Positions 2,868 through 37,297 of a stretch of DNA of 37,297 bases are shown here, piece after piece. The notes beneath the pieces are model-generated. The model saw nothing but the letters and a program-made list of their open reading frames with translations. It did no database searches and was not told the origin of the DNA. The position numbers were made by a program, and so were the translations under genes. Each line of letters opens with the position of its first letter. Within the stretch, counting starts at the first letter, position 1. This DNA comes from an uncultured bacterium (GTDB taxonomy: Bacteria; Myxococcota_A; Polyangia; Polyangiales; Houyiibacteriaceae), in NCBI GenBank assembly GCA_937984275.1, contig CALJYC010000046.1, forward strand, positions 1-37,297, given 5' to 3'.

Positions 2868-2960
2868 GCGCACCCGCAACTAGCGAAAACCAGGTCGAAA
2901 TTCGCCCATCCAACGCCGCCTTTTTGCGCTTTTTCGTTTGTGTAGGTGATCATACTACAT

Positions 2961-3827
2961 ATGACGACATCTGCAGCGGTCGCGGCGAGGATCGAGCAAC
3001 AGCCACGGGAGGCAGCCCCCTTTGTGAAGTGGGTCGGGGGCAAGGGCCGATTGCTGAGCCAGCTGCGACCGCTGCTCCCTTCAGGGGTAGAGCACATGCG
3101 CCACGTCGAGCCGTTCGTCGGCGGCGGCGCGCTCTTTTTTTCGCGTCGCCCTGGGCGAGCGCTGCTGACCGACATCAACCCGACCCTGGTGGCGGCGTAC
3201 TCTGCGATTCGTGACGACGTCGAAGGTGTGATCGTCGCATTGCGTGGGCTTGCCGGCCGCCACTCCAAAGAAAGCTATTACCAAGTCCGCGAGCGCTACA
3301 ACCAGGGTAGGCGTGTGTCCACGTCAAAGCGGGCGGCGATGTTCATCTACCTCAACAAGACCTGCTTCAATGGATTGCATCGCGTGAACCGCAAAGGCGA
3401 GTTCAACGTGCCGGTCGGGTCGTACAAGAACCCACGCATCCTGAACGAGGACGGCCTGCATGCAGCGAGCCGCGCCCTGAAAGACGCCCAACTGAAATGC
3501 GCACCGTTCGATGCACTGCTCGAAGACGCCAAGCCCGGCGACTTCATCTACTTCGACCCGCCCTATGAGCCAGTCTCCCAAACCGCCAGCTTCACGTCGT
3601 ACGCCCGCGACGGCTTCTCCCAAGAAGACCAGACGCGCCTACGCGACGTCTACAAAGCCCTCGACCGCCGAGGCTGCAAACTCATGCTCTCCAACAGCGA
3701 CGTCCCCTTCATCCGCAATCTCTACAGCACCTTTAACATCGACACCGTAGCCGCCCCCCGCGCCATCAACTGCGACGCCAAAAAACGCGGCAAAGTAAGC
3801 GAAGTAATAGTCCGCAACTACCAATAA
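2961..3827 (+). CDS. DNA adenine methyltransferase, D12 class (Dam-like)
   Basis: A 288-residue N6-adenine DNA methyltransferase. It has the alpha-class order: the AdoMet loop FVKWVGGKGRLL at residues 21-32, EPFVGGGALFF at 50-60, the helix with YLNKTCFNGL and the catalytic DPPYEPVS at 199-206 followed by FTSY. Dam recognises GATC, but whether this enzyme does cannot be read from sequence. I favour the ATG at 2961, which has AGGTGA at 2944-2949; a GTG at 2946 is possible but has no ribosome site. No restriction endonuclease is adjacent, so it is an orphan. The gene stops five bases before the palindromic element at 3832. Its last third is strongly C-rich on the coding strand (about 102 C to 44 G between 3541 and 3780), unlike its balanced 5' part; see the findings. 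Confidence 0.92.
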   Translation: MTTSAAVAARIEQQPREAAPFVKWVGGKGRLLSQLRPLLPSGVEHMRHVEPFVGGGALFFSRRPGRALLTDINPTLVAAYSAIRDDVEGVIVALRGLAGRHSKESYYQVRERYNQGRRVSTSKRAAMFIYLNKTCFNGLHRVNRKGEFNVPVGSYKNPRILNEDGLHAASRALKDAQLKCAPFDALLEDAKPGDFIYFDPPYEPVSQTASFTSYARDGFSQEDQTRLRDVYKALDRRGCKLMLSNSDVPFIRNLYSTFNIDTVAAPRAINCDAKKRGKVSEVIVRNYQ

Positions 3828-3831
3828 AAGT

Positions 3832-3893
3832 AAAAGGGGTCAGACCCCTTTATTAAAGGGTTAACCCTTTTGAAAAGGGGTCTGACCCCTTTT
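3832..3893. repeat. 62-bp palindromic REP-like element between convergent genes
   Basis: The two outer arms each carry a GGGGTC-GACCCC hairpin: GGGGTCAGACCCC at 3836-3848 and its reverse complement GGGGTCTGACCCC at 3877-3889. They flank a central palindrome AAAGGGTTAACCCTTT at 3855-3870. The whole unit is one inverted repeat centred on the TTAA at 3861-3864, with only positions 3852-3854 failing to pair with 3871-3873. It lies between dam (plus) and the MFS gene (minus), the classical position of REP/BIME elements, and ends in a T run on each strand, so it could also act as a bidirectional terminator. The TTAA supplies the stop codon of the MFS gene. A second copy of the arm is at 36986. Confidence 0.9.
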
Positions 3894-5186
3894 TCGTGCG
3901 TACGGGGGGAGGCCCCAGGCTGCGGTTGCGGCGGCGAGTGGGGCGAATACCGCGGCTATGCCGGACAAGGCGATGTGCAGGGTGTTGTCGCCACCTAGGA
4001 CGTGAGTTGTCAGCGCGCCGACTAGGGGCGGGCCCAGCCCCAAGCCGACGAGGTTTGCGGCAAACAATAGGAGTGCGGATGCGAGCGCTCGCATTTCGTT
4101 GGGTGTGACCGTTTGGAGGGCGGCGATCGCTGGGCCGAAGTAGCTGCTCATCAGGAACAGGATCGGAACCGCCATCCACAGAGCCCCCTGCTGTGTGGGC
4201 ATCAGAGGTCCGAGAATGCCGGGGACCAACCACAGCAACGCCGCCAGGACCACAACGCGCATGTTGGCATCGGGGTATCGATGACTCAGTCGCTCGGCCA
4301 AGAGACCCCCAGTCAACGCACCGACGCTTCCGGCGATGATGAAGATCCAGCCGAACTTGGGCCCAACTTGACTGGCCTCCGCGCCGAAGCTGCGGATCAG
4401 CATCTCGACGTACCAAGTGATCGTGCCATACCCGAGCACCGACAGCATCGAGACGCTTCCTAGGATCGATCCATAGAGTCGCGCGTGGGTGCGAAAATAC
4501 CGAAGCACCTCGCGAACCGGCACCCCTTCTCCTTCGGCGCGCGTTCGACCGTGACGCTTGGGCTCTCGGATCGTCCAGACCAACGCGCCGACGGCAAAGC
4601 CCGGAAGCCCCACCAAGATGAAGGTCAGCTGCCAGGGCTCGAGTGAACCGACGATGGGAAGAAGTAGCTCCGTGTCGCCGACGGCGCCTAACACCCAGCC
4701 GCCGATCATGTACGCCATCCCCCCACCGATGGTGATCCCCAAGGTGAAGATCGACATGGCGCGCGGCAGCAGCTTGGCCGGGAAGAGGTCGCTCAGCAGT
4801 GAGTGTGCCGGCGGCGACAACGCAGCCTCGCCCACGCCGACCCCCATCCGCGCCACGAACAAGCCACCAAAGCTCCGCACCAACCCGCACACGCAAGTCA
4901 TGACCGACCAAGACAACACGCCGACTCCGACGATCGTCCGCCGGCTCTTTCGGTCGGCTAAACGTCCAATAGGCAAACCGAGGACCGTATAGAAGAGCGT
5001 AAACGCCAGCCCATGCAGCAACCCGTATTGGAAGTCGGTGATTTCGAACGACTTGCGAATCGGCCCAACGAGGATCGCCATGACGTTGCGATCGATGAAG
5101 GACAGGATGTAGGCCAGCAGCAGAACAGTCAGCGCCCAGCGGGCACGGGGCCGACTGTCGGACAAATGAGCGGCGTCGGGTGTCAC
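3861..5186 (-). CDS. MFS transporter
   Basis: A 441-residue major facilitator protein with about 12 hydrophobic segments. The first helix carries YILSFIDRNVMAIL and the loop between helices 2 and 3 has GRLADRKSRR, the MFS signature between TM2 and TM3. The subgroup resembles the transporters often labelled spinster-like, but the substrate cannot be inferred. The start is a GTG at 5186; no in-frame ATG lies close by. The last dozen residues (RKRGQTPFQKG) are encoded by the palindromic element at 3832-3893, and the stop TAA is the centre of that palindrome, so the original C-terminus was probably different. The 3' 250 bases share the element-associated composition bias. It is separated from mlaF by a hexanucleotide repeat, so a shared operon is uncertain. 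Confidence 0.9.
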   Translation of the reverse strand: MTPDAAHLSDSRPRARWALTVLLLAYILSFIDRNVMAILVGPIRKSFEITDFQYGLLHGLAFTLFYTVLGLPIGRLADRKSRRTIVGVGVLSWSVMTCVCGLVRSFGGLFVARMGVGVGEAALSPPAHSLLSDLFPAKLLPRAMSIFTLGITIGGGMAYMIGGWVLGAVGDTELLLPIVGSLEPWQLTFILVGLPGFAVGALVWTIREPKRHGRTRAEGEGVPVREVLRYFRTHARLYGSILGSVSMLSVLGYGTITWYVEMLIRSFGAEASQVGPKFGWIFIIAGSVGALTGGLLAERLSHRYPDANMRVVVLAALLWLVPGILGPLMPTQQGALWMAVPILFLMSSYFGPAIAALQTVTPNEMRALASALLLFAANLVGLGLGPPLVGALTTHVLGGDNTLHIALSGIAAVFAPLAAATAAWGLPPYARKRGQTPFQKG

Positions 5187-9158: not shown

Positions 9159-10006
9159 TCTCGCGGGTACTCTCTCTCTTGCGCCTGGATCTCCGGCTCC
9201 CATTCCGCCAGCCGCGTGCGCATCGTCGCGATCGCGTCTGGACTTTCGTCGATGAGCACGAACCCCCGGCCAAGGCGCGCAGCGGCTTCACCAGTCGTCC
9301 CACTCCCGGCAAAGAAATCGAGGACCGTGTCGCCGGGTTCCGTGTGCACCTTGATGATGCGCTCGAGCACGCCGAGCGGCTTTTGCGTCGGGTACCCGGT
9401 CTTCTCTTTGCCGTTCGTCGGGACGATGGTGTGCCACCAGACATCGGTCGGAGTCTTGCCCCGAGCGGCTTTTTCTTTCCCCACTAGCCCGGGCGCCATG
9501 TATGGAATGCGATCCATCTCGTCGAACTGAAAGACGTAGCGCTTGGGGTCGAGGACGTACCAAAGGAGCGTGTCGTGCTTGGCCGGCCACCATCGCTTCG
9601 GCCGCCCTCCGAAGTCGTACGCCCAAATGATTTCATTGCGAAAACGATCCCTACCCAAGAGTCGGTCGAGCGCGACTTTCACGTAGTGCACTTCGCGGTA
9701 ATCGAGATGCACGAACAGCGACCCATCGGGGGTGAGGCACGGAAGCGCGGCTTCGATACGGCTCATCAGAAAGGGAACGTACGCCTCAAACTCATCTTCG
9801 TAGGTGGGGCTGTCGATCCGTTCGACGTCGTAGCGTCGGCCGCCGAAACCCTGTCGCTCACCCTCCTCGGCCGCCCGCACTTGCATCCGCTGGCGGGACT
9901 GCTTGCGCCCCGTGTTGAACGGCGGGTCGATGTAGATCAGCCGCGCGTGCTCGCGCGGGAGTGTCTGGAGGACCTCCAAGTTGTCGCCCTGTACGATTCG
10001 CTTCAC
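9125..10006 (-). CDS. site-specific DNA methyltransferase, beta class (N6-adenine or N4-cytosine)
   Basis: A 293-residue orphan methyltransferase in the beta-class order: the catalytic DPPFNTG comes first (near residue 27), then a central target-recognition section with [20 protein letters not shown], then [12 protein letters not shown] and the AdoMet motif [15 protein letters not shown]. The DPPF form is common in type III-like and CcrM-like adenine methylases, but the base and target site cannot be deduced. I chose the GTG at 10006 ([13 protein letters not shown]), where homology begins; an ATG at 10087 would leave only five bases to thiS and adds a basic stretch without homology. No endonuclease is adjacent. 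It converges on and overlaps the glutaminyl cyclase gene. The C-terminal tail (RGTSSTSNT) is probably not structured. Confidence 0.88.
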
Positions 10007-16708: not shown

Positions 16709-16723
16709 GCCGGAGAGTGTCCC

Positions 16724-20329
<3,606 letters not shown>

Positions 20330-36335: not shown

Positions 36336-37297
36336 ATGAGCCCTGATCGCGTCGGCGGAAGGCGGAGGCCGGTTCGCATCGCCTTTGCCATAGTGCTCGC
36401 GCTGCAGGTCTTCTTGGCCGTGTGGGGCGTCGCCGATCAATGGACTCGCGGCCACAACGGCTGGAACGGCTCCGCGTATCACAACGCCGCGCGCAACACG
36501 TTGCGCTGGGACGTGCTGTTCCCGCTGCAGTATGAGACCGCCAACGTTCCCCCGAAAAGGGAGCAGCTCTACACGCACGCACCGCTCGCGCTGCACCTAC
36601 ACAACGTCGCCAGCGTGAAACTCTTCGGCGATCGCGAGGTGTCTATCCGGCTGGTCGCAGGCTTCTGGAGCGTGGCCGCCCTCTGCATGTTGTTCGCCGT
36701 GGTGCGACGCCTCTGGGACGATGCCCACGCCCTAGCCGCCTCCGCGATCTACGTCGCCCTCCCGATCAACGCGATCTACACCAACATGGCCAACCACTCG
36801 GCCGGCTTCATCTTCTGGTCCCTACTCACCCTCTACCTCTACATCCGAGCAATCCGCGCCCCACCCTGGCGCCGCCTGGACTTCGCCCTCTTCCTCGCCA
36901 CCTTCGCCATCGCTGCCAGCTGGGACTGGCCCGCCTATTACATCGCCGCCTGCATAGCCCTCCACTGGACCCACACACTCACAAAAAAAGGGGTCAGACC
37001 CCTTTTCAGAAGGGTAGGCGATAGCGTGGGCGCGGCGAGCCCCGTGGGCGATGCAAAGCATCGACTTTACGGGGTGGGGCAGGACAACCTGCCGCCGCAG
37101 GCGTCCGGCGAAAATTTCTCGAGGCTCGGGGTGTTTTGTGGGTGGGTGGTTCTTTTGTTTTTGGGGCATTTCGTGTTGGTGGAGGTGGTCACTGGGAATC
37201 TGGATGAGTTGACAGGGGCATTCAATACGCGGCGGGCGCTTTCTTGGGCGCGATTTCGGACGCACTTACTGGTGGTGCCACAGCTGATGTTCACGGC
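36336..37297 (+). CDS. membrane glycosyltransferase, GT39/ArnT-like (3' truncated by window end)
   Basis: An open frame of 320 codons running off the right edge without a stop. It starts with an ATG 33 bases after mcd. An N-terminal membrane segment (AFAIVLALQVFLAVW) is followed by a luminal loop with GHNGWNGSAYHNAARN, then several hydrophobic helices (VAGFWSVAALCMLFAVV, ASAIYVALPINAIYT, AGFIFWSLLTLYLYI, FALFLATFAIAASWDW). This order resembles dolichyl-phosphate-mannose or lipid-linked sugar transferases (PMT_2/ArnT). The donor is unknown, and the usual acidic residue in the first loop is replaced by His/Asn. From about residue 217 to 259 the frame reads through the second palindromic element without disruption, after which hydrophobic sequence (VVLLFLGHFVLVEVV) resumes. 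Codon use switches across the element from C-ending to G/T-ending. Confidence 0.75.
   Translation, partial: MSPDRVGGRRRPVRIAFAIVLALQVFLAVWGVADQWTRGHNGWNGSAYHNAARNTLRWDVLFPLQYETANVPPKREQLYTHAPLALHLHNVASVKLFGDREVSIRLVAGFWSVAALCMLFAVVRRLWDDAHALAASAIYVALPINAIYTNMANHSAGFIFWSLLTLYLYIRAIRAPPWRRLDFALFLATFAIAASWDWPAYYIAACIALHWTHTLTKKGVRPLFRRVGDSVGAASPVGDAKHRLYGVGQDNLPPQASGENFSRLGVFCGWVVLLFLGHFVLVEVVTGNLDELTGAFNTRRALSWARFRTHLLVVPQLMFT
36986..37110. repeat. second palindromic element with additional hairpins, inside a coding frame
   Basis: The left end is the same GGGGTCAGACCCC arm with flanking A and T runs (36986-37006). It is followed by a structured stretch. There is a nested stem with CCCCGT at 37040-37045 pairing ACGGGG at 37069-37074 around CGATGC/GCATCG at 37049-37063, then a hairpin GGCAGG-ACAA-CCTGCC at 37078-37093, and a weak GCCG/CGGC stem at 37094-37109. 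The right boundary is set by the end of visible structure and is uncertain. The element is transcribed and translated as part of the glycosyltransferase frame. Confidence 0.8.

Follow-up and report, generated by a model that had tools for sequence, protein, structure and literature searches.

The insert in the glycosyltransferase gene

How does a palindromic repeat come to lie in frame inside a membrane protein gene, and what kind of repeat is it? The question is raised by the window analysed here, the whole 37,297-nt stretch of DNA formed by contig CALJYC010000046.1 (positions 1-37,297; assembly GCA_937984275.1) of a 3.49-Mb genome denoted G000. The window ends inside a plus-strand membrane glycosyltransferase gene, of which it holds the 5' 320 codons (36336-37297; Pfam PMT_2, E 1.2e-10). 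A GGGGTC/GACCCC palindrome is located at 36986-37006, and the reading frame from 36336 passes through it and stays open to the window end. Both this palindrome and a hairpin at 37038-37076 fold far better than shuffled sequences (z -3.6 and -4.7, respectively), as expected from the preliminary description, which had proposed a palindrome with further hairpins in an open frame. Judged from that frame, the insert is predicted to be read as a protein loop, and its translation would include the peptide VGDSVGAASPVGDAK.

The insert had been taken for one palindromic element, but positions 36985-37109 are a composite of three stacked repeat families on the plus strand: a half-unit of family A, then a family C repeat with family B nested inside it. 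The A half-unit (36985-37015; AAAAGGGGTCAGACCCCTTTTCAGAAGGGT) has the palindrome GGGGTCAGACCCC with A/T flanks and the inner arm AGAAGGGT, reads KKGVRPLFRRV in frame and belongs to a family with consensus ends AAAAGGGGTCAGACCCCTTTT..GGGTTAA. The C repeat (37014-37109; GTAGGCGATAG...GGCGTCC, split by B) is 90% identical over 96 nt to a copy at 2539-2634 of contig C396. A palindrome foot of the GTAG type is present in repeat C, the C396 copy starting with GTAGGCGATAG; the A/C junction in the window reads GGGTAGGCGATAG. The B hairpin (37038-37076, 39 nt; GCCCCGTGGGCGATGCAAAGCATCGACTTTACGGGG) has many copies of 86-93% identity over about 40 nt, and when these were checked for a GTAG foot, they were found to read CCCCGTAAAG or CCCCGTAGAG. 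We regard B as nested in C because a C copy on contig C33 (L035) is free of B. A single mobile palindrome covering all 140 bp was ruled out, since the three families are separate.

The end of the window is also the end of the contig; the gene continues with its 3' half on contig C100, where 280 of 281 residues of the homologue in the relative G015 could be aligned at 86% identity. The two contig ends share 41 identical bases, and the joined sequence is a 601-aa open frame. On both sides of the insert, dN/dS is 0.03-0.13 (against G015 and G013). The long frame and the low dN/dS show that the gene is alive; together with the contig overlap and colinear orthologues they rule out a dead gene or an assembly artefact, and no stop codon or frameshift follows beyond the window.

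The same loop in related genomes

The insert lies between two hydrophobic segments, in the loop that follows ..WDWPAYY, and the difference in length to homologues falls exactly at the element. This loop has 64 aa in G000 and 31 aa in six relatives (G017, G007, G004, G012, G010 and G006), and every homologue on a long enough contig has a long open frame. An extra loop of about 43-47 residues had been proposed, with a homologue gap of about 45. The extra loop and the position of the gap were confirmed, but the net gain is about 33 residues, because part of the ancestral loop codons was replaced. Repeat-free homologues carry an unrelated short loop rather than the same loop sequence. Some 25-40 nt of the loop were replaced by the inserts, so that they are not a pure addition; this counts against a clean IS200-type insertion, for which such replacement is atypical.

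Other relatives carry repeats in the same loop. G013 (39 aa) has a full inverted A2 pair with core GGGGACAGTCCCC in frame, and G016 (43 aa) has another in-frame A2 pair with the same core. A remnant of the C repeat, without A or B, was found in G015 (44 aa), and the 31-aa loop of G014 includes a palindrome fragment (NKGSDP). A two-gene tree places G016 far from G013, with element-free species between them. The loop was therefore hit repeatedly, or was hit and then precisely emptied.

Copies and location of family A

The 17-mer AAGGGGTCNGACCCCTT of family A has 96 copies in the genome, whereas the control, the same pattern read backwards, has none. Of the 87 half-units, 27 belong to head-to-head pairs of fixed spacing. 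The window contains one full inverted, REPIN-like pair (3832-3893; 61 bp, palindromes 41 nt apart, 90% complementary, fold z -8.1), which is located between convergent genes: a DNA methyltransferase-like gene on the plus strand to its left (2946-3827) and an MFS-like transporter gene on the minus strand (3861-5186). As had been suggested, this copy also contributes protein sequence, namely the last residues of the transporter (..KRGQTPFQKG).

We sampled 85 A loci, in DNA of which 92% is coding according to a home-made gene caller. Twenty loci were convergent, 24 tandem, 7 divergent and 30 at an edge or unclassified; 4 were nominally gene-internal. Two of the latter were dropped, L086:8385 because the glutamate 5-kinase gene there probably starts only downstream of it, and L102:8236 because it falls within a likely spurious 5' extension. 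Only two loci are thus truly gene-internal, the glycosyltransferase gene and an FtsX/MacB-type permease gene at L144, in which the A copy (9500-9540) is in frame and read as KGVRPLFERVKD; a few others overlap gene 3' ends. At L144 a GGGGACCCTCCC tract downstream of the A copy is likewise in frame. Such a low count in a sample so rich in coding sequence means that A avoids genes and that the internal copies are survivors. The two copies in the window had earlier suggested a mobile palindrome that either targets coding DNA or survives in it; the count of in-frame copies speaks against targeting and leaves rare in-frame survivors.

Within the GTDB contig collection, one record, from a Deltaproteobacteria MAG, contained the exact 33-nt A half-unit; a literature search for the exact palindrome gave no matches. 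Several other sequences accompany family A. The half-units of L102, L105, L108, L125, L128, L130, L135, L138 and L145 are followed by a recurring conserved stretch (..ACGTCGACTTCTAC..GGAGAACGGCTCGCGATGGG..), often at contig ends, which is a longer unnamed repeat. CCAGTG tandem repeats begin right after the inner arm of the half-unit at L082, L114 and L141. Family C often occurs between A half-units or at them, and does so at matching sites of different species (L087/L239, L122/L253 and L143/G013:C1 392490), a placement that looks like targeting of the A pair centre GGGTTAACCC. At L086 (2175-2915), a gene judged AlkD-like by eye is flanked by inverted A copies, and G013 has the same layout with the other core.

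Family A as a probable transposase-end repeat

On contig C95 of G012 (L219), a Y1 transposase gene (PF01797, E 1.6e-12) lies between inverted A2 copies with core GGGGACAG. TIRYT are Y1 transposases whose terminal repeats share GGGGWSAS, often as dimers (Di Nocera et al. 2013, PMC3733652), and this motif fits both GGGGTCAG, the core found here, and GGGGACAG in the relatives. Further traits of that family are present in A, namely inverted dimers, moderate-to-high copy number and intergenic location. The published inverted repeats of this type (TIRtrons) likewise form moderately abundant families beside Y1 transposase genes (PMC3733652); they differ from A, whose core has changed species-wide at orthologous sites, whose copies are surrounded by a switch in strand composition, and for which we found no A-flanked transposase in its own genome (assembly 88% complete). 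A cognate transposase was not found in most A-carrying genomes either. REPIN/RAYT systems (Bertels and Rainey 2011, PMC3116915; Nunvar et al. 2013, PMC3686654) share with A the head-to-head palindrome pairs, the intergenic location and the population-wide sequence classes, but have a GTAG foot, whereas the A core here is GGGGWCAG.

G000 itself has two Y1 transposase genes with different terminal repeats, L016 (C390; GGGACACTCTCCACCCC) and L017 (C345; AACCTGGGAAGG). Both were rejected as drivers of A, as their flanks bear other repeats. A half-repeat of another transposase-end family, D, remains in the window at 16712-16724 on the plus strand (GGAGAGTGTCCCC), and the same motif flanks the Y1 transposase gene at C390.

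We consider it probable that the insert is made of three non-autonomous REP-type repeats in a tolerant loop of an intact gene, that a Y1 (HUH) transposase of the TIRYT kind has A as its terminal repeat and REPIN, and that the gene-internal copies are survivors. Family A would have been moved by a transposase of the G012 type, spreading in trans through single-stranded DNA intermediates, with the space between genes as its usual place. Internal copies would be kept in rare cases, since most reading frames of the repeats have no stop codon and selection would spare only those insertions that keep the frame and fall in dispensable loops; survival of the present insert probably reflects such tolerance of the loop. 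A palindromic element of the Rickettsia type, specialised to enter and stay in coding genes, would also be palindromic and in frame, and would also add a charged tract to a living protein. By their description, the Rickettsia palindromic elements resemble this insert as palindromic repeats read in frame inside functional proteins, but A is overwhelmingly intergenic, with the two gene-internal loci noted above, and fits transposase-end repeats, which makes a specialised coding-gene element very improbable. In-frame REPs outside Rickettsia have been published for Opitutus terrae, Thauera, Xanthomonas and others (Di Nocera et al. 2013, PMC3733652), and in-frame insertion is therefore of an already known kind. 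Those intragenic GTAG/CGTC REPs, single or in clusters, also encode tens of residues, and two Xanthomonas species have different REPs at about the same recB site, as in the loop described here (PMC3733652). They belong to another repeat family and another lineage, whereas here three families are serially stacked and nested in one loop. The locus is a documented case of selfish palindromes supplying what are predicted to be protein loops, and can be compared with homologues in which this loop is short or holds other repeats.

Core switch between species

The core GGGGACAGTCCCC was found 155 times in G013, 91 times in G011 and 89 times in G016, all of the same genus and with few copies of GGGGTCAGACCCC, while G000 has 95 copies of GGGGTCAGACCCC versus 12 of GGGGACAGTCCCC. 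Neither core was found in any of 38 other genomes of the family or order that were searched. Blocks of G013 were picked regardless of A sites, except near the glycosyltransferase gene. At 13 of 14 mapped loci the element was present in both G000 and G013, the core being nearly always the other one, and for two of the G000/G013 loci both flanks of the element align base for base. The A population has thus switched core largely in place, GGGGTCAGACCCC having taken over from GGGGACAGTCCCC at conserved sites, and is a natural record of the replacement of a repeat population. A related case, which the A core switch resembles, is the 'orthoswitch' of a REP class with partial replacement (Nunvar et al. 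2013, PMC3686654).

Strand composition around family A

The insert is flanked by DNA of opposite composition on the plus strand. The left flank (36761-36984) is A/C-rich, with a third-codon-position GC skew of about -0.6 to -0.7, and the right flank (37110-37297) is G/T-rich, with a skew of about +0.7. The same change surrounds A sites in general: on the top strand, A and C predominate to the left and G and T to the right for about 300 bp on each side, and the bias fades by 300-500 nt. Over the nearest 0-50 nt, the keto-skew difference was +0.43 in G000 (82 sites), +0.40 in G013 (45), +0.53 in G015 (20), +0.40 in G016 (29) and +0.63 in G009 (6), with random positions near 0. The strongest switches in the genome sample were at A cores (6 of 9 at a threshold of 0.5, 4 of 4 at 0.6), and none of the reverse switches was. 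In small samples, the transposase-end families D (6 sites) and E (4 sites) also showed the switch, and B and C away from A hardly any. Unlike A, 18 REP clusters in 250 kb of E. coli K-12 showed no switch and leaned the opposite way.

The switch was equal at convergent, tandem, divergent and gene-internal A copies (dK about +0.33), and at junctions without A it was small (+0.02 to +0.13). This independence of gene orientation disfavours transcription as the cause. It also argues against the suggestion that A copies are bidirectional transcription terminators, not mobile, which reached the gene by chance or gene conversion and owe the switch to transcription. The A-tract, GC stem and T-tract of the repeat and its position mostly at gene ends would suit a terminator, but the gene-internal copies and the transposase-flanking pair are left unaccounted for, and the sign of the switch is opposite to that of coding-strand deamination; we regard this origin as improbable.

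Two further causes, a mutational scar left by the elements and a site preference, appear equally probable to us, each a real possibility at rather less than even chance. IS200/IS605-type transposases work by a single-strand mechanism, and deamination of single-stranded DNA is a source of G/T richness. A scar would arise if either strand of the palindrome were nicked by an HUH transposase and the 3' flanks were exposed as single strands by displacement synthesis, with C and A deaminating there and being read as T and G. The sign and symmetry agree with this, each strand being G/T-rich 3' of the palindrome, as does the occurrence of the switch at the transposase-end families A, D and E and not at B or C without a nearby A or at the E. 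coli REPs; a comparable deamination-type reading exists for mitochondrial strand asymmetry. A scar is less easily reconciled with the sparse cognate transposases, with divergence near A, which was not raised between G000 and G013 or G015, and with the element-free 31-aa glycosyltransferase loops, which have the switch (-0.64/+0.59 in G017, -0.54/+0.30 in G007, -0.47/+0.32 in G004). These loops favour the other possibility, in which often-single-stranded loci or local synthesis starts acquire the switch before any element and attract several repeat families. The presence of different repeats (A, C) at the same sites in different species points the same way, but precise excision could give the same picture, and excisions of REPINs have been reported (PMC3116915). 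Two further observations speak against a switch that precedes the elements: G016 carries an A2 pair in the loop and yet has a weak switch, and among 18 species compared at the methyltransferase junction, third-position skew is strongest in the three that carry the element (-0.95, -0.90 and -0.85; others -0.22 to -0.80), the value of -0.95 being that of the last 150 nt of the gene in the window.

The switch is strong and replicated, and could show at which DNA sites these transposases act in vivo, and in what way. It alters codon choice in neighbouring genes, which is easily taken for selection. Tentatively, and as a reading less probable than not, we suggest that the transposase-end palindromes of this genus mark recurrent starts of local strand-displacement synthesis. 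Such starts would leave a composition switch like that at an origin, from A/C to G/T over about 300 bp per side, and would rewrite synonymous sites of neighbouring genes; the palindrome population, in turn, would be rewritten in place upon a change of core specificity. A strong A/C to G/T switch was also seen at the family D remnant at 16712-16724, which lies between two minus-strand genes.
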